A stretch of 59,407 bases of DNA from contig CANKAT010000011.1 of the NCBI GenBank assembly GCA_947479815.1, positions 1 to 59,407 on the forward strand. Direction: 5' to 3'. This document shows, in pieces, positions 14,853 through 24,477 of this stretch. This stretch comes from Sphingobacteriaceae bacterium (GTDB lineage: Bacteria; Bacteroidota; Bacteroidia; Sphingobacteriales; Sphingobacteriaceae). Below the pieces are notes generated by a model. The model had not been told where the DNA came from and did no database searches. It worked only from the letters and a program-made list of their open reading frames with translations. The first letter of the stretch is position 1; each line of letters starts with the position of its first letter. The translations under genes were made by a program, and so were the position numbers.

Positions 14853-14957
14853 TAATAGTTGCAAACACGTTCTTAATAGGTATTGTTTAACGAAGATTTT
14901 ACCAATAATGAACATATTTCACTAATTTCATTTAATAAATTGACGTGTAAATTAACC

Positions 14958-17900
14958 ATGAAGGCTTCAGAGGAAAACTACGTCTACCTAATTGAAAAAA
15001 TTGACGATTTTATCCATAAATATTACCTTAATAAGGTTGTAAAGGGCTCTATATTCCTAGCTTCATCACTCTTTGTAGCTTATATTGTTGTTACAATGGC
15101 TGAATATTTTGGTCATTTTGATCCAATTGTCCGAAGTATACTTTTCTATACTTTTATTGTCACAAACCTCTTTGTTATTGCCGCTTATATTCTAATTCCA
15201 CTGTTGTCGTACTTCCAATTGGGGAAAACGCTATCCCATGAACAAGCTTCAGCTATCATCGGACAGCATTTTGCGCCGGTAAAAGATAAACTGTTGAACA
15301 CACTTCAATTAAAAAAACTTTGCGATTTAAATCCTGAACAGCGCTCACTCATTGATGCGAGCATCAATCAGAAAATTGCAGACCTCAGGTCAGTACCGTT
15401 TACCTCAGCAATACACATAAAAGAAAATCGTAAATATTTAAAATATGCGGTAGCTCCAATGGCCCTTATTGTTTTTATTTTTTTTGCTTCTCCATCTATT
15501 TTAAGTGAAAGCACCGAGCGATTAATCAATCATAATAAACGATTTATAAAAAAAGCACCATTCCGCTTCGAAATACTAAACCAAAATTTTTCAGCTGTTC
15601 AGGGAAGCGATTATACCCTAATGGTAAAGCTTACCGGCAATGAGATCCCATCTGAACTTTATCTTGAAGATGGAATTAATACCTTTAAGCTAAACAGAGA
15701 AAATAACATACGCTTTAATTACACATTCAAGAATCTTCAAAAAAATAAGAAAATAAGACTTCGGGGTGGTGAATTTAGTTCTACCGACTATTTGCTAGAA
15801 GTTAAAGCCAAACCAAGCATTATTGATTTTGAAGTGTTTATTGAATATCCGGCATACTTGAATAAGCACAATGATGCTTTTGAGAATTCTGGAGACCTAA
15901 CTGTGCCTGAAGGATCTAAAATTAATTGGAAATTTAATGCTCAAAACAGTGAGCAGCTTGATATAAAAATAGACAGCAAAAAATTTCTGATCGGGCAAGC
16001 AAATAACAATGCCTTCAATTTTTCATATAAAGTCATAAAAACCCTTGAATACAGTGTAAAACCCATCAATAAGGGTGTGGAATCATCGCAGGCAGTAAGC
16101 TATCAACTCCGGGTGATTCCCGATTTGTTACCGGCTATTGAGATCAATGAAAAACAAGATTCTGTCAATAATAAACTGCTTTACTTTATGGGGCAAATCA
16201 ATGATGACCATGGGTTTTCTAAACTAACTTTTAATTACAGAATTGTATCCCAGGACCCAGAAAACAAAGTAAAACCAAGTATAAAATCAATTGCATTCAA
16301 CAAGAATACTCTTCAGAGTAATTTCCTTCACGCCTGGAATGCAACTGAAGCCGGAGCTAACCCTGGTGAACAAATTGAATATTATTTTGAAATATTTGAT
16401 AATGATGGGGTTAATGGACCTAAAGCAAGTAGGTCGGCTATGAAAATATTGAAATTGCCCTCAGAAAAAGAAATAGAAGAGCAAGTGGAAGAAAACACTA
16501 AGCAAATCAAGGATAAGATGGAACAGGCCATTAAAAAGTCTATTCAGGTAGATAAGGAAGCAAAAAAACTAAATCAGGATCTACTTAATAAAACGAAGCT
16601 TTCCTATGAAGAAAAAAAATTAGTTGAAACCCTGATCAAAAACAAAAATGAGCTTGAAGAACTGGTAAAGGATATACAGAAAGAGAACAAACAAAATCAG
16701 TTTGAACAGAATGAACAAAACGAAAAGATACTGGAAAAACAAAAACAGATAGAGAACCTGTTCAATAATGTGCTGGATGAGAAAACTAGAGAAATATTAA
16801 AAAACATTGAAAAACTACTAGATAAAAATAATACTAACCAAACTAGAGAAGAGCTTTCTAAAATGCAGATGGATAATAAATCATTGCAGAAAGAACTGGA
16901 TCGAATATTAGAACTCTATAAACAGCTGGAATATGAACAAAAACTAAGTGAAACTATTGAAAAACTTAGCGAATTAGCAAAAGAGCAGGAGGCACTTAGT
17001 GAAAAGTCTAGTGAAAAAAATGCAGACATTCAAAAACTGAAAAATGAACAAAACATTTTAACGAAAGAATTTGATGAATTGAAGTCTGAACTGAATAAGC
17101 TGGAGCAAAAAAATGAGGAACTGGAACAAAAAAACAATTTTGAGAACCCAGAAAAGGAGCAGCAACAGATAGATCAGCAACAAAAAGAAAGTTCTGATAA
17201 TCTAGAAAAAAAAGATCAGAAAAAGGCTGCTCAAAATCAAAAACAAGCAGCTTCCAAAATGAATGAACTTTCTAAAAAATTGGAAAAAATGCAGGAAGAA
17301 GGAGAAGAAAAAGAAAGTGAAGTGAATGCCAAAGAATTAAGAGAGGTACTTGAAAACCTCCTTAGCAGTTCATTCGACCAAGAAAAAACAATGCAAGAGG
17401 TAAGAAGTATTAGCAACAATGACCCCGGATATGTGTTACAAACACAAAAACAGAAGGATATTCAAATCAATCTGAAAATGATCGAAGACAGTCTCTATTC
17501 TCTAAGTAAAAGGGTTCCACAAATTGAATCAGTTGTAAATAAAGAAATACAAACCATAAATTTAAATGTAGGCAAAGCTATTGAAAGTCTTGGCGAACGT
17601 CGTACAGCAGAAGCTAATCGAAATCAACAATTTGCAATGACCTCAATTAATAATTTAGCACTAATGCTAAATGAAGCACTTGAGCAATTACAACAGTCGC
17701 AGCAAAATAGCAAGCCAGGTGGAAAAGGCAAGAAGAAACAGAGCCTTTCGCAACTCAGTAAAATGCAAGAAACGTTGAATAAAAACATGCAAAAAGCCAG
17801 AGATGACATGCAAAAACAAGGTCAACAAGCTCCTGGTCAGCAAGGGAATCGTAGTGGTACAATGAGTGAAAAACTTGCTAAGATGGCAAGAGAACAGCAA

Positions 17901-18296
17901 ATGATTAGACAGGCCATGCAAGAAATAAACAGACTAGAGAATAAAGATGGAAAGGCGGGCTTAGGTAATCTTGATAAATTAGTAAAAGAGATGGAACAAA
18001 CAGAAACCGAGCTCGTAAACAAAAGAATTAAACAAGAAACATTATCCAGACAACAGGAAATTTTGAGTAAACTGCTTGAAGCCGAAAAGGCCGAACAGGA
18101 ACGGGAAGAAGATCAAAAACGAGAAAGCAAAGAAGGGGCTAATCAAACACCCATGAATTCAATAATATTAGAGGAGTATATAAAAATTAAACAAAAAGAA
18201 ACCGATTTACTTAAGACAGTACCTCCCTCATTAAATTCATTTTATAAAATAAAAGTAGGAGACTATTTTAAATTTTTAAATTCGGGCAATAAATGA
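14958..18296 (+). CDS. DUF4175 family membrane protein with long coiled coil
   Basis: The 1112-aa protein has two N-terminal membrane segments (about residues 37-58 and 70-95) and a third near 160-178. A beta-rich region (about 200-500) lies outside the membrane. It is followed by a very long, Lys/Glu/Gln-rich coiled coil from about residue 515 to 1060 with repeated heptads (KQIEN, EQKNEELEQKN). It fits DUF4175, a family found in Bacteroidota but of unknown function. The ATG at 14958 is preferred to an upstream TTG. Its stop overlaps the ATG of the ATPase gene by 4 nt (ATGA), so synthesis of both is coupled. A role as envelope sensor or scaffold is possible but unproven. Confidence 0.82.
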   Translation: MKASEENYVYLIEKIDDFIHKYYLNKVVKGSIFLASSLFVAYIVVTMAEYFGHFDPIVRSILFYTFIVTNLFVIAAYILIPLLSYFQLGKTLSHEQASAIIGQHFAPVKDKLLNTLQLKKLCDLNPEQRSLIDASINQKIADLRSVPFTSAIHIKENRKYLKYAVAPMALIVFIFFASPSILSESTERLINHNKRFIKKAPFRFEILNQNFSAVQGSDYTLMVKLTGNEIPSELYLEDGINTFKLNRENNIRFNYTFKNLQKNKKIRLRGGEFSSTDYLLEVKAKPSIIDFEVFIEYPAYLNKHNDAFENSGDLTVPEGSKINWKFNAQNSEQLDIKIDSKKFLIGQANNNAFNFSYKVIKTLEYSVKPINKGVESSQAVSYQLRVIPDLLPAIEINEKQDSVNNKLLYFMGQINDDHGFSKLTFNYRIVSQDPENKVKPSIKSIAFNKNTLQSNFLHAWNATEAGANPGEQIEYYFEIFDNDGVNGPKASRSAMKILKLPSEKEIEEQVEENTKQIKDKMEQAIKKSIQVDKEAKKLNQDLLNKTKLSYEEKKLVETLIKNKNELEELVKDIQKENKQNQFEQNEQNEKILEKQKQIENLFNNVLDEKTREILKNIEKLLDKNNTNQTREELSKMQMDNKSLQKELDRILELYKQLEYEQKLSETIEKLSELAKEQEALSEKSSEKNADIQKLKNEQNILTKEFDELKSELNKLEQKNEELEQKNNFENPEKEQQQIDQQQKESSDNLEKKDQKKAAQNQKQAASKMNELSKKLEKMQEEGEEKESEVNAKELREVLENLLSSSFDQEKTMQEVRSISNNDPGYVLQTQKQKDIQINLKMIEDSLYSLSKRVPQIESVVNKEIQTINLNVGKAIESLGERRTAEANRNQQFAMTSINNLALMLNEALEQLQQSQQNSKPGGKGKKKQSLSQLSKMQETLNKNMQKARDDMQKQGQQAPGQQGNRSGTMSEKLAKMAREQQMIRQAMQEINRLENKDGKAGLGNLDKLVKEMEQTETELVNKRIKQETLSRQQEILSKLLEAEKAEQEREEDQKRESKEGANQTPMNSIILEEYIKIKQKETDLLKTVPPSLNSFYKIKVGDYFKFLNSGNK

Positions 18297-18715
18297 TTAA
18301 TCAGATAGAAAACATAGATATTACTTCAGTATATACGCTGAAATTACCTTCTCGTACCAACAGTATTACCCTGGTAGAAAATTTTATCGATGAGCTGAGT
18401 GTAAAATATGGGTTCAGTGATGTCATTTATGCTAACGTACTAACTTGCCTTAGTGAAGCCGTAGTCAACGGAATTGTTCACGGAAACCGGCAAAACCCCG
18501 AGAAGAAGGTTTATATTAATTTGGAGGTAATAGAAGAAAAACAATTAATATTCACTATTTCTGATGAAGGTGAAGGATTTAACTTGAATAGCCTACCAGA
18601 AACAAGAGCTACAGAAAATTTGACGGGAAGAGGTGTTTTTCTTATTAAAAAACTCGCCGATCAATGTATCTTTAATTCAAAAGGAAATGAGCTAGAGCTC
18701 CATTTTAAAATTTAA
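18293..18715 (+). CDS. RsbW/SpoIIAB-like ATP-binding protein (HATPase fold)
   Basis: The 140-aa protein is a stand-alone GHKL ATPase domain. The N box reads LSEAVVNGIVHGN, the G1 box DEGEGFN and the G2 region GRGVFLIKKLAD. These are the marks of anti-sigma serine kinases (RsbW, SpoIIAB), which phosphorylate a partner STAS protein and sequester a sigma factor. Neither an STAS antagonist nor a sigma factor gene is present in this window, so partner and target are unknown. It overlaps the DUF4175 gene upstream by 4 nt and the ybeY start downstream by 1 nt, so the three form a tight translational unit. Confidence 0.88.
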   Translation: MINQIENIDITSVYTLKLPSRTNSITLVENFIDELSVKYGFSDVIYANVLTCLSEAVVNGIVHGNRQNPEKKVYINLEVIEEKQLIFTISDEGEGFNLNSLPETRATENLTGRGVFLIKKLADQCIFNSKGNELELHFKI

Positions 18716-19146
18716 TGAGCCAATTACCTATACATTTTTTTACGGAAGATATATCCTTTACTTTAAAGCAAAAGGGCCCACTCAGGACCTGGATAAAAAA
18801 TACAATTATAGCCGAGGGGTTTGAACTTAGGGGGTTGAATTTTATATTTTGTAGCGATAATTACCTGCTTTCAATCAATCAAAATTATTTAAAACATGAC
18901 ACCCTTACAGACATCATTACTTTCGACAACAGTGAAGAAAAGCGAGTAATTGTTGGCGATATTTTTATTAGTATAGAACGTATTCGGGAGAATGCACAAA
19001 GCTTTAAGGTTACAAGCGAGAGTGAATTACACCGGGTCATGATACATGGAACCCTACACCTTTTGGGCTATGCTGATAAGGGAAAAGAAGCGAAAGCCCA
19101 AATGACAGATAAAGAAAACCTTTACCTGTCAAAAAGAACATTTTAA
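18715..19146 (+). CDS. ybeY: Endoribonuclease YbeY (rRNA maturation)
   Basis: YbeY is a metal-dependent single-strand RNase needed for 16S rRNA 3' processing and ribosome quality control. The 143-aa protein carries the family core (DTLTDIITFDN, GDIFISIERI) and the metal motif HGTLHLLGYADK. H111 and H115 match the first two zinc ligands, but the third ligand, His in E. coli (H124), is replaced by D121. I recall the same change in Bacteroidota homologues, so it is probably a lineage variant, not damage. The start overlaps the stop of the upstream ATPase gene (TAATG). The gene ends 2 nt from the convergent pirin gene. Confidence 0.93.
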   Translation: MSQLPIHFFTEDISFTLKQKGPLRTWIKNTIIAEGFELRGLNFIFCSDNYLLSINQNYLKHDTLTDIITFDNSEEKRVIVGDIFISIERIRENAQSFKVTSESELHRVMIHGTLHLLGYADKGKEAKAQMTDKENLYLSKRTF

Positions 19147-19148
19147 AA

Positions 19149-19859
19149 TTATAGCATTGGAATTTCAATGATCAGAACCTTTGAGTTTTTCTGAAAATCA
19201 ATTTCAAATTCATCAATATCATAAACACCTACAGCATCGCGATTGGCCAATTCTGTATCATCTAATACACCCTGTCCTTCAATAAAAAACACATAGGCTC
19301 CATTTCCAGGGTGCTGAATCTTATAGCTTACCTTTGAATCTGCATCAAAAGTACCCAAACTAAAAAAAGCATCCTGATTAATCCACATCATATTATCACC
19401 TTTAACAGGCGATACAACTGTCAAAAACGAATTATTCACCTTCTTCAGATCATAATGTATTTGGTCGTAACGGGGCTCTATATTACGTTCCTTTGGAAAA
19501 ACCCAAATCTGTAGCAGATTAACCGCCTCAGTCGAAGAACCATTAAATTCAGAATGTTGAATACCCTTACCGGCAGACATAATCTGAACTTCGCCATATT
19601 CAATATTACCAACAGAGCCCAAACTGTCTTTATGGGCTAAGGTGCCCTTCAGGGGGATGGTAACTATTTCCATATTATCATGTCCATGTGTCCCAAAACC
19701 CATACCGGGAGCCACGATATCATCATTTAAAACCCTCAATAAGCCAAAATGAACCTTGGCTGGATCATGATAGTTAGCAAAACTAAATGAATGTGCTGCT
19801 TTGAGCCAACCATGATCCTGAATTCCACGATCTGCTGCGCGGTGAATAATCTTCTTCAT
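19149..19859 (-). CDS. Pirin family protein (bicupin)
   Basis: The 236-aa protein matches the YhhW-type pirins: DHGWLKAAHSFSFANYHDP near the N-terminus, metal-binding GFGTHGHDNMEIVTI in the N-terminal cupin (His, His and Glu ligands) and MSAGKGIQHSEFN as the fourth ligand region. Some members have quercetin 2,3-dioxygenase activity in vitro; the natural role is uncertain, often linked to redox stress. It stands alone on the minus strand, convergent with ybeY, and shares an 87-nt divergent promoter region with the next gene. Confidence 0.92.
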   Translation of the reverse strand: MKKIIHRAADRGIQDHGWLKAAHSFSFANYHDPAKVHFGLLRVLNDDIVAPGMGFGTHGHDNMEIVTIPLKGTLAHKDSLGSVGNIEYGEVQIMSAGKGIQHSEFNGSSTEAVNLLQIWVFPKERNIEPRYDQIHYDLKKVNNSFLTVVSPVKGDNMMWINQDAFFSLGTFDADSKVSYKIQHPGNGAYVFFIEGQGVLDDTELANRDAVGVYDIDEFEIDFQKNSKVLIIEIPML

Positions 19860-19903
19860 GCGATTAATTTTTAATTATATGTTTAAACACACACTATTAA
19901 TTC

Positions 19904-19926
19904 CAAACCTAATATGCGTACCTTTG
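19904..19926. promoter_or_regulatory. Divergent -7 promoter elements
   Basis: TAGGTTTG on the minus strand (19911-19904) faces pirin, and TACCTTTG on the plus strand (19919-19926) faces the NAD(P)-binding protein gene. Both match TAnnTTTG in full and lie at plausible distances from their genes. Neither has a good -33 box at 19-21 nt. Confidence 0.5.
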
Positions 19927-19946
19927 CTCATTAATTAGCAAAATAA

Positions 19947-20603
19947 ATGCCATATAGAGTCATTTTAGTAGGAGCAAGCGGACTTATTGGCAGTAACTTA
20001 TTGTCAGAATTGATCCGGTCTGAGGCAATATCAGAAATTCTTTTATTGGTCAGAAGATCAACCGGTGTATCTAGTTCTAAAGTTAAGGAATTGATAGTGA
20101 ATTTTGAGGAACCAAATAGTTATTCGGTTGATATTCAGGCAGATATAATATATAGTTGTTTGGGAACCACCAAAAGTGAAACACCCGATTCCTCATTATA
20201 TAGACAAATAGATTTAGAGTATCCACTCAATCTTGCAAAACTTGGTCAAAAGAATGGAGTAGCACAGTTTCATATTATCTCGTCATTGGGAGCAGATACT
20301 GGATCTTCAAATTCCTATCTCAAACTTAAGGGAGAACTAGAACAAGAATTGAAAAAACTAACTATGCCATCACTTCACATTTATCAGCCTTCATTTTTAA
20401 TTGGTGAGCGTAAAAAAGATCGTCTTGCCGACAAGATAATGAAACCATTTTTCCGGCTGATTGACCCATTATTGATAGGATCATTAAAAAAATACAGAAG
20501 TATCAAGGCTGCAGATGTGGCAAGAGTGATGCTTAAGCAGTCCATAAAAAACCTGAAAGGCACATTTACATATCCTTCCATTCAAATACAAGAATTAGCG
20601 TGA
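19947..20603 (+). CDS. NAD(P)-binding Rossmann-fold protein (TIP30/SDR-like)
   Basis: The 218-aa protein begins with a dinucleotide-binding motif VGASGLIGSNLLSELIRS (about 7-24) and follows the atypical short-chain dehydrogenase pattern of TIP30-like NAD(P)H-binding proteins, with the conserved ISSLGADTGSSNSYLKLKGELEQ segment in place of the catalytic Tyr/Lys region (Y and K about 119-125). The substrate is unknown. The stop codon overlaps the GTG start of the following uup gene by 4 nt, so the two are translationally coupled, although no functional link is known. Confidence 0.85.
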   Translation: MPYRVILVGASGLIGSNLLSELIRSEAISEILLLVRRSTGVSSSKVKELIVNFEEPNSYSVDIQADIIYSCLGTTKSETPDSSLYRQIDLEYPLNLAKLGQKNGVAQFHIISSLGADTGSSNSYLKLKGELEQELKKLTMPSLHIYQPSFLIGERKKDRLADKIMKPFFRLIDPLLIGSLKKYRSIKAADVARVMLKQSIKNLKGTFTYPSIQIQELA

Positions 20604-22468
20604 GTATATTATCTACCGAACAATTAGGGCATTCATTTAACGATAACTGGCTTTTTAAAGATCTATATTTGGGTCTCAATAAAGGAGACCGTGTAGCTTT
20701 GGTTGGCATAAACGGGACGGGTAAATCTACCTTACTTCGTATACTTTCTGGTTTACTGGCACCCAGTCTGGGCAAAGTGGTAACTGAAAGAGACCTAAGA
20801 ATCGGATATCTGGAACAAGATCCACAATTCCAAAATCAGGAAACGATCAGCGACTTTATTTACTCTATTGGCAATGAAAGACAGCAGCTCATTAGACACT
20901 ATGAGGAAGCTGTTGAAAAAGAAGTTCAGGATGAAAAACTCTTGAACAGGCTCATGGATGAACTCAGTAATGCCAACGCCTGGGAATATGAATATGAAAT
21001 AAAGACCATTCTGGGTAGAATGGGTATACAACATTTAGAGCAGAAGATTACAACCCTGTCGGGCGGACAAAAAAAACGTCTTGCTCTAGCCAAATTACTT
21101 ATTGACGATCCAGATGTTTATATCCTGGATGAACCCACCAACCACCTTGACATTGAAACGATAGAGTGGCTAGAGAGTTATATGACCGGAGGACAAAAAA
21201 CCATCTTACTTGTAACACACGATAGGTATTTTCTGGATAATGTTTCATCAAGAATCATCGAGCTAGATAGGGGAAAGCTTCAAAACTTCAATGGAAATTA
21301 CAGTTATTATCTGGAGAAAAAGGCCGAACAAAATGCTGCCGAAGATGCCACTTTCAATAAAAACACAAACCTGCTCAAAAGAGAACTTGAGTGGATGCGT
21401 AGACAACCCAAAGCTAGAACCACAAAATCAAAATCAAGAATAGATTCATTTTATGACCTCGAAGAAAAAACCAAGGGTCGAAACGTAAAATCTTCTTTAG
21501 AGTTAAGCGTTAATGTATCAAGGCAAGGAAATAAGATTCTTGAATTAGAAAACATCAGCAAAAGCTTTAATGGAAAACCCGTTATCCATAATTTTAGCTA
21601 TACTTTCAAAAAAGGAGATAGAATTGGTGTAGCTGGTAAGAACGGTACAGGAAAATCAACACTGCTGAATATTGTGACAGGGGCCATTCAGCCAGATAAT
21701 GGCAAAGTACTGGTAGGAGAAACAACCGTATTCGGATACTACCGACAGGGGGGGCTTGAATTTAAAGAGGAAGAGCGAGTCATCGATGTAGTAAAAAATG
21801 TTGCCGAATACATCACCATGGCAGATGGAAAAACCCTAACCGCTAGTCAGGTTTTAACACACTTTCTTTTTCCGCCAGCCAAGCAATATGGAATGGTAAA
21901 CAAACTTAGTGGTGGTGAAAAGAAAAGGCTTCAATTAATGCGGGTGCTTATGAAGAACCCCAATTATTTGATTCTAGATGAGCCTACTAATGATCTAGAT
22001 ATTGATACCTTAAATGTACTTGAAGATTTCCTGCTTAACTTCCCGGGTATTTTGATGTTGGTTTCTCACGATAGATATTTAATTGACCGACTAACCGATC
22101 AGTTGTTTATTTTTGAAGGGGATGGAAATGTTCATATCTATGCGGGTAATTACACAGATTACAGACTCGAGCAGGAAGAGCCCAAAAAGCCTACCAGGTC
22201 TGTTTTAAAAACAGAAATGATTAATTCTGAACCTGAAGTACAGAAACGAAAATTAAATTTCAAAGAAGAAAAAGAATTGGAGGGCCTCGAATCTGAAACA
22301 GAAAAACTTGAAAAACAGATTGAGGAGTTAACAACTGAATTAAACTCAGGCATTACGGATCATGTCCAATTGTCTGAGATAGCTATAAAAATAAAGGATT
22401 TGAAAGAAAATGTTGATAAAATGACCATGAGATGGTTAGAACTTACAGATTTAAAAGAAAATTCATGA
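20600..22468 (+). CDS. uup: ABC-F ATPase, Uup type
   Basis: The 622-aa protein has two ABC domains in one chain and no membrane segment. Walker A motifs are GINGTGKST (36-44) and GKNGTGKST in the second half; signatures are LSGGQKKR and LSGGEKKR; both Walker B motifs (YILDEPTNHLD, LILDEPTNDLD) are intact. The inter-domain linker contains WMRRQPKARTTKSKSRI. The C-terminal coiled coil (about 555-620) identifies the Uup subgroup, which acts on ribosomes or branched DNA and affects transposon excision. It starts with GTG, overlapping the upstream stop. Downstream are a 32-codon reading frame and the parS-like sites. Confidence 0.92.
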   Translation: MSILSTEQLGHSFNDNWLFKDLYLGLNKGDRVALVGINGTGKSTLLRILSGLLAPSLGKVVTERDLRIGYLEQDPQFQNQETISDFIYSIGNERQQLIRHYEEAVEKEVQDEKLLNRLMDELSNANAWEYEYEIKTILGRMGIQHLEQKITTLSGGQKKRLALAKLLIDDPDVYILDEPTNHLDIETIEWLESYMTGGQKTILLVTHDRYFLDNVSSRIIELDRGKLQNFNGNYSYYLEKKAEQNAAEDATFNKNTNLLKRELEWMRRQPKARTTKSKSRIDSFYDLEEKTKGRNVKSSLELSVNVSRQGNKILELENISKSFNGKPVIHNFSYTFKKGDRIGVAGKNGTGKSTLLNIVTGAIQPDNGKVLVGETTVFGYYRQGGLEFKEEERVIDVVKNVAEYITMADGKTLTASQVLTHFLFPPAKQYGMVNKLSGGEKKRLQLMRVLMKNPNYLILDEPTNDLDIDTLNVLEDFLLNFPGILMLVSHDRYLIDRLTDQLFIFEGDGNVHIYAGNYTDYRLEQEEPKKPTRSVLKTEMINSEPEVQKRKLNFKEEKELEGLESETEKLEKQIEELTTELNSGITDHVQLSEIAIKIKDLKENVDKMTMRWLELTDLKENS

Positions 22469-22614: not shown

Positions 22615-24477
22615 ATGTTTAACAAATACGATGTAATAGTAGTTGGTGCGGGGCATGCGGGTTGTGAAGCCGCAGCGGTAGCAGCAAACTTGGGCTCAAA
22701 AGTTTTGCTAATTACCATGAATATGGAAACGATAGCCCAAATGAGTTGCAATCCCGCAATGGGTGGAGTAGCAAAGGGGCAAATTGTGCGCGAAATAGAT
22801 GCAATGGGTGGCTACTCGGGTATAATAACTGATAAAACAACCCTGCAATTCAGGATGCTAAATAGCTCAAAAGGACCCGCCATGTGGAGTCCTAGAGCAC
22901 AAAGCGATAGAAAAAGGTTTGCTGAAGAATGGAGGCTAGCACTAGAAAGAACACCCAATGTTGATTTTTGGCAAGATACTGCTACCTCTTTGTTGATTGA
23001 AGGCAACAAAGTGTGCGGGGTAAAAACATCACTCGGAATAGAAATTAGTTCAAAAGCAGTCGTATTAACCAATGGCACTTTCCTTAACGGAATTATACAT
23101 ATTGGTGAAAAGAAGTTTGGTGGTGGAAGAACAGGAGAAAAATCGGCTACTGGAATAACAGAACAATTGGTTGAGTTGGGCTTTGAGGCTGGAAGAATGA
23201 AAACAGGTACCCCACCAAGAGTAGATGGTCGCTCACTCGATTATTCAAAAATGGAAGAACAATGGGGCGATGAGAAGAGAGGTAGATTTTCGTATACCAA
23301 TGTAGAACTACCCACAGAACAAAGATGTTGCTGGATAACCTATACTAATTCAGAAGTACACGAAACACTAAAAGAAGGGTTTGAGAAATCACCGATGTTC
23401 ACTGGAAGGATAAAGGGTCTAGGACCACGATATTGTCCTTCAATTGAAGATAAAATAAACCGATTTGCAGAAAGAGACAGACACCAAATATTCGTAGAAC
23501 CCGAAGGATGGAATACCGTAGAAATTTATGTCAATGGATTCTCAACCTCACTACCAGAAGATGTTCAGTACAGGGCTTTAACAAAGATTCCAGGATTTGA
23601 AAATGCAAAAATGTTTAGACCCGGATATGCAATCGAATATGATTTCTTCCCACCAACACAATTAAATTTAACGCTCGAAACCAAAAAAATTGAAAACCTG
23701 TACTTTGCAGGACAAATCAATGGAACTACAGGATATGAAGAAGCAGCTTGCCAAGGATTCATGGCAGGAATTAATGCACACCTAAAAATAAATGAAAAAG
23801 AAGAGCTGATCCTAAAAAGAGCCGAATCCTATATTGGGGTATTAATTGATGACTTGGTTACTAAGGGAACCGAAGAGCCATACAGAATGTTCACATCAAG
23901 AGCAGAACACAGATTGCTATTGCGTCAAGACAATGCAGACATTAGACTAAGTCAAATAGGTCACCGGTTGGGGCTCATTAATAATGAAAGACTTGAGAAA
24001 GTAAATCAGAAAATAAAAAATTCGGAAACGATCGTAGCTTATTTAAAAAATACATCAATTGCACCAAACGCTATAAATAGTATCCTAGAAACCCAGGGTA
24101 CACCGGGAATAAGCCAAAATGTTAAACTGTTTCAATTAATCACCAGACCACAGATCGGTTTTGAAAATCTTAGAAAAGCGGACTCGAATTTTGATTCTAT
24201 CTTAAATTCTTTTGATCAGGAAACGGTTGAACAAGCAGAAATAAAAGTTAAATACGAAAGCTATTTTGAGAAGGAGTTAGAAATAGTTGATAAAATGAAA
24301 AGGATGGAAGATCAAATCATAAATCCCGAATTTAATTATCGCGAACTTGTATCTCTTTCAAAAGAAGCCCGCGAAAAGCTGATGAAAATAAAACCTAGAA
24401 CTTTAGGTCAGGCATCTAGAATTTCTGGCGTTTCACCTTCTGATATTTCAGTTTTAATGGTTCATATGAGTAGATGA
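22615..24477 (+). CDS. mnmG: tRNA uridine-5-carboxymethylaminomethyl modification enzyme MnmG (GidA)
   Basis: MnmG, with MnmE, installs the cmnm5 group on the wobble uridine of several tRNAs, using FAD and methylenetetrahydrofolate. The 620-aa length is typical. Family marks are the FAD-binding [19 protein letters not shown] (about 8-26), [18 protein letters not shown] and [13 protein letters not shown], the second cofactor region [22 protein letters not shown], and the C-terminal helical domain that binds MnmE. The ATG is preceded by two parS-like sites, so ParB binding could affect its transcription. No MnmE or ParAB gene is in the window. Confidence 0.97.

Follow-up and report, generated by a model that had tools for sequence, protein, structure and literature searches.

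We identified a candidate signaling switch in a Sphingobacteriaceae bacterium (GCA_947479815.1) through a three-gene unit on contig CANKAT010000011.1, whose full 59,407 nucleotides (nt) we refer to as the window. In this unit, the gene for a 140-amino acid (aa) ATPase (18293..18715) lies between genes for a 1112-aa DUF4175 membrane protein (14958..18296) and for YbeY, a predicted rRNA-maturation endoribonuclease (18715..19146), all on the + strand. We propose, with moderate confidence, that the ATPase is a serine kinase of the SpoIIAB/RsbW type that acts on STAS-A, a STAS domain protein encoded at a different locus, in a sigma-independent partner switch with the DUF4175 protein as its membrane partner. 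In Bacillus, kinases of this type act as switches for genes of stress and sporulation, and what is known of partner switches mainly concerns sigma-factor control in Gram-positive bacteria. The proposal draws directly on conservation, adjacency, co-occurrence, co-decay of a phospho-acceptor site, SpoIIAB-like sequence, and a predicted fold. Together, the conserved unit and its distant STAS partner suggest a signaling switch without a dedicated sigma factor, and we found no description of either the trio or STAS-A in open-access papers.

The ATPase matches Pfam HATPase_c_2 at 65.1 bits and is the one protein in the window genome above the cut-off for this family. The preliminary description credited it with all nucleotide-binding boxes and an RsbW-type kinase nature; the first point is confirmed, and sequence and predicted fold support the second. 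The N (E55/N59), G1 (D91xG93xG95), and G2 (G112RG) boxes are all present, in line with assignment to HATPase_c_2, and 32 orthologues show no variation at E55, N59, H63, G64, D91, G93, G95, G112, R113, and G114. A structural model (pLDDT 88) best matches SpoIIAB crystallized with its STAS partner (Z 18.4 over 127 residues), ahead of RsbW (Z 17.5), SiaB (Z 12.4), and the best histidine kinase (9.7), and a sequence-profile search of the PDB returned a Leptospira protein (9qih), RsbW, and SpoIIAB as the nearest solved structures. Against curated equivalogs the ATPase scores 43.1 of 135 bits for SpoIIAB (TIGR01925) and 32.7 of 145 for RsbW (PRK04069). It probably works like these kinases yet forms a subfamily of its own, since it falls below both cut-offs.

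The putative substrate is encoded elsewhere. No sigma factor or STAS antagonist had been noted near the ATPase, which is correct for the unit itself, but a STAS protein that co-evolves with the ATPase has its gene next to rnz (ribonuclease Z) at another locus. The window genome carries exactly one stand-alone STAS protein, STAS-A (G000:C21:6487-6852), 21 nt from rnz. Reading of stand-alone STAS genes revealed one orthologous group, STAS-A, with orthology secured by the adjacent rnz: the gene lies upstream of rnz at 78 of 91 loci, with a spacing of less than 50 nt at 56, and the other 13 loci have no rnz within the stretch read. We examined co-occurrence in a class sample of 60 genomes covering about 50 Bacteroidia families, in which YbeY served as an unbiased anchor. 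Any stand-alone STAS protein was present in 48/48 genomes with the ATPase and 3/12 without (Fisher p 1.5e-8), and a strong STAS-A in 45/48 and 0/12, respectively (Fisher p 3e-10), although these p-values ignore kinship among genomes and so overstate significance. As alternative partners we rejected two other sets of STAS proteins, group B (MNSSG) and the linked ones with a YISSAG motif, which are patchy in distribution; the window genome has only STAS-A.

Natural losses of the ATPase gave a view of how STAS-A fares alone. Every genome in a second sample of 71 from the window's own family (34 with the ATPase, 37 without) retains a STAS-A, scoring 171-184 bits where the ATPase is present and 78-141 bits where it is absent, ranges that do not overlap. 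The DSSG motif, read directly from sequences of this family, occurs in 30/30 STAS-A proteins from ATPase-containing genomes and in 0/18 from ATPase-less ones. Its serine, S56, aligns with the DSSG serine of SpoIIAA, which SpoIIAB phosphorylates. In the ATPase-less genus g97, eleven sequences read D[SA]QD and have a one-residue insertion, and the ATPase-less genus g99 has DTSG, with threonine at the serine position. Outside the family, alanine is found in f35 (NAE, NAD; two genomes, rnz still adjoining) and glutamate in G007 (DEDS). Glutamate also occupies the phospho-serine position in all six genomes read from the ATPase-less genus g2 (L327-L331, L254), where it is possibly a fixed phosphomimetic.

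Eight g97 genomes lack the ATPase while DUF4175 and ybeY are still neighbors. An RNase Z tree places g97 as sister to the ATPase-containing genus g98, with g2 and g99 apart, and the best tree thus has two ATPase changes within the family. As read from the sequences, the decay of the STAS-A phospho-site is what one would expect to see if the ATPase were the kinase and STAS-A its substrate. The decay tracks the ATPase rather than DUF4175, which nearly all g97 genomes retain. We regard phosphorylation of STAS-A at Ser56, with partner switching, as quite likely. The ATPase would phosphorylate the serine of DSSG, and phosphorylation would decide whether STAS-A is bound to the kinase or free; the switch would have no dedicated sigma factor as its output. 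From these comparisons we infer kinase activity, signaling direction, contact with DUF4175, and output.

The gene unit is compact and widely conserved. Both overlaps in the preliminary description are visible on the sequence, with 4 nt shared by DUF4175 and the ATPase (ATGA, 18293-18296) and 1 nt by the ATPase and ybeY (TAATG, 18713-18717). DUF4175 starts with ATG at 14958, and an in-frame TTG at 14883 is a possible alternative. We scanned 59 ybeY loci of the class sample by the YbeY anchor and searched all 60 genomes with DUF4175 and ATPase profiles. The order DUF4175-ATPase-ybeY was found at 32 of the 59 loci, window included, often with mnmG next. Gaps of 20 nt or less separate DUF4175 from the ATPase in 28/32 cases and the ATPase from ybeY in 22/36, counts that take in two loci selected outside the ybeY-anchored set. 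DUF4175 is present in 56/60 genomes, as a single copy, and the ATPase in 48/60. All 48 ATPase-containing genomes carry DUF4175, and the two genes are neighbors in 45, including genomes in which ybeY lies elsewhere, as it does in many. Within the family sample, DUF4175 accompanies the ATPase in 34/34 genomes and the trio is intact at all 30 ATPase loci read. By these adjacency and co-occurrence counts, DUF4175 and the ATPase belong firmly together, and ybeY is more loosely attached to them. Chance conservation among close relatives had been raised as a possible objection to the trio, and the unit's occurrence across dozens of Bacteroidia families answers it. By ATPase, the window's relatives are Daejeonella and its kin (Sphingobacteriales); a single-protein search with the ATPase returned 17 relatives from Bacteroidota, in which the trio is present, and one ATPase from Acidobacteriota, in which it is not. 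ATPases from other classes of the phylum are flanked by unrelated genes, and we excluded them as paralogues.

The DUF4175 protein matches Pfam PF13779 at 31.2 bits (cut-off 27.3) over only 129 of 825 profile positions (200-328). It has three transmembrane (TM)-like stretches, at about 25-51, 55-89, and 158-185, followed by three Ig-like beta domains and a helical coiled coil of about 600 aa. The preliminary description saw a membrane sensor with a coiled coil plus a periplasmic-looking beta region; membrane location and periplasmic Ig-like domains stand, and topology puts the coiled coil in the periplasm as well, with the C-terminal ~900 residues assigned there by topology and structural model. 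The TM2-TM3 loop (~75 aa) is cytoplasmic by topology. With the Ig-like region and coiled coil in the periplasm, only the N-terminus and this loop could meet a cytoplasmic ATPase. A fold search of the PDB returned generic Ig-like matches only. All eight DUF4175 proteins from ATPase-less g97 genomes (L335-L342) have lost both E48 and R187 (numbered without the initial Met), which are predicted to lie where TM1 and TM3 reach their outer ends and may form an ion pair. The window genome also encodes a protein of 708 aa whose Ig region is DUF4175-like (L134:1811-3937, G000:C13), in a cluster whose other members resemble, by sequence reading, a MoxR ATPase, a DUF58 protein, a BatA-like protein, and a further membrane protein; the same weak paralogue recurs in many family members.

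We propose that DUF4175, by way of its N-terminal TM and cytoplasmic part, would be the anchor, sensor, or output of the switch, and that the switch would act on or through it at the membrane. We give a functional tie between the two even chances. A less likely reading, though one with some force, is that the kinase and STAS-A form a switch and that its place beside DUF4175 and ybeY is merely inherited gene order. ybeY and mnmG are housekeeping genes of an old order, the ATPase has been lost while its neighbors stay, and it lies away from DUF4175 in three genomes. Pulling the other way, DUF4175-ATPase adjacency survives separation from ybeY in at least 10 genomes, and in both samples every genome with the ATPase also has DUF4175, which supports a link between the ATPase and a membrane protein. 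The TM helices of DUF4175 have changed more than the remainder in ATPase-less g97, a weak signal.

Several observations count against our proposal. DUF4175 occurs without the ATPase in 8/60 class genomes and in 27 of the 37 ATPase-less family genomes, and its retention in the former indicates a function independent of the ATPase. Comparing DUF4175 from genomes with and without the ATPase, we found no docking site: the TM2-TM3 loop shows no decay (identity ratio 0.98), and the ratios for TM1-TM2 (0.83), TM3 (0.78), and the C-terminus (0.87) are suggestive at best. Three ATPase-containing genomes have no strong STAS-A (G110, G112, G127), with G127 carrying a divergent STAS-A beside rnz that retains the serine. 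A serine still follows the aspartate in 6/11 g97 sequences, so what is lost there is the motif and not clearly the serine. If only well-supported branches are counted, the class tree requires no more than two ATPase changes and the family tree one, and a sign test on independent pairs is underpowered. The support is comparative throughout.

YbeY is securely assigned (Pfam 92.3 bits; TIGR00043 92.8 bits, cut-off 45), with aspartate in place of the third ligand of the H3XH5XH zinc motif (HGTLHLLGYAD, near the 3' end of 18715-19146). The same substitution appears in 57 of 58 readable Bacteroidia YbeY proteins (L064-L123), like the aspzincin variant of metalloproteases. The preliminary description raised the possibility of envelope-to-ribosome signaling, which in its fuller form would place YbeY under the control of DUF4175 and the kinase, and RNase Z under that of STAS-A. 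The kinase gene overlaps ybeY, STAS-A is closely placed upstream of rnz at most loci, and both neighbors encode RNA-maturation endonucleases. This evidence is one of neighborhood, and against it YbeY and RNase Z persist in genomes without the switch, ybeY is often elsewhere while DUF4175 and the ATPase stay joined, and some STAS-A loci show no rnz. We think this scheme improbable, and rate just as low an effect of the switch on YbeY or RNase Z at all. The same low standing goes to a broader, sigma-independent scenario in which a partner switch ancestral to much of Bacteroidia is split over two loci, with DUF4175 controlling the kinase and its STAS partner to adjust RNA maturation through the two enzymes. 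Least likely is that the ATPase is a canonical anti-sigma factor holding a sigma factor encoded elsewhere and freed through STAS-A: it resembles in sequence and fold SpoIIAB and RsbW, which hold sigma-F and sigma-B, but its scores lie far under their equivalog cut-offs, the unit has no sigma gene, and our search of the window genome for an alternative sigma factor with region 3 found none, the sole region 3 protein (286 aa) reading as the primary sigma factor.

Downstream of the unit, mnmG (22615..24477, + strand) directly follows ybeY in many Bacteroidia, whereas three genes intervene here (19149-22468), encoding pirin-like (- strand), NAD-epimerase-like, and ABC-F proteins. ABC-F and mnmG likewise lie downstream of ybeY in the closest named relatives, and ybeY and mnmG are near neighbors in many other families.

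By analogy, the nearest known systems are SpoIIAB/SpoIIAA for chemistry and SiaABCD for non-sigma output. With SpoIIAB/SpoIIAA and RsbW/RsbV of Bacillus the predicted switch would share the GHKL serine kinase fold with its boxes and a STAS DSSG aligned to SpoIIAA; in contrast to them, its kinase gene lies apart from the STAS gene and beside DUF4175 and ybeY instead, and it has no cognate alternative sigma factor. In Pseudomonas aeruginosa, SiaABCD pairs the kinase SiaB with the SpoIIAA-like SiaC, has a non-sigma output, and includes the PP2C phosphatase SiaA and the diguanylate cyclase SiaD (PMC7647112, PMC8457831). The likeness lies in a partner switch with non-sigma output and in the fold match to SiaB; unlike SiaABCD, no phosphatase or cyclase is linked here, PF07228 (SpoIIE) not having been searched for genome-wide. 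Apart from the trio, operons that link a SpoIIE phosphatase, a STAS protein, and a HATPase occur in some Bacteroidia (L130:3434-6301, L132:6014-8946, L128:3330-6224; SpoIIE domain checked in L130 and L132). The operons of L130 and L132 encode a kinase and a STAS protein of the same kinds and come from the same class, but they are complete linked modules with a phosphatase, and the trio ATPase belongs to a separate subfamily, with GRG in box G2 instead of G[ML]G. For DUF4175, AdvA of Acinetobacter baumannii (PF13779) has a role in division (PMC7481262). The window protein shares the Pfam match above cut-off, but over about one sixth of the profile, and the division role is not transferable to it.

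If our interpretation is correct, a conserved kinase-STAS pair that has no sigma factor of its own and is linked to a large envelope protein would constitute a class-wide signaling system in Bacteroidia, one that current annotation conceals as an 'ATP-binding protein' and a 'STAS domain' protein. With two proteins named, and with natural losses of the kinase accompanied by a decaying phospho-site in its presumed partner, the switch would be directly testable.

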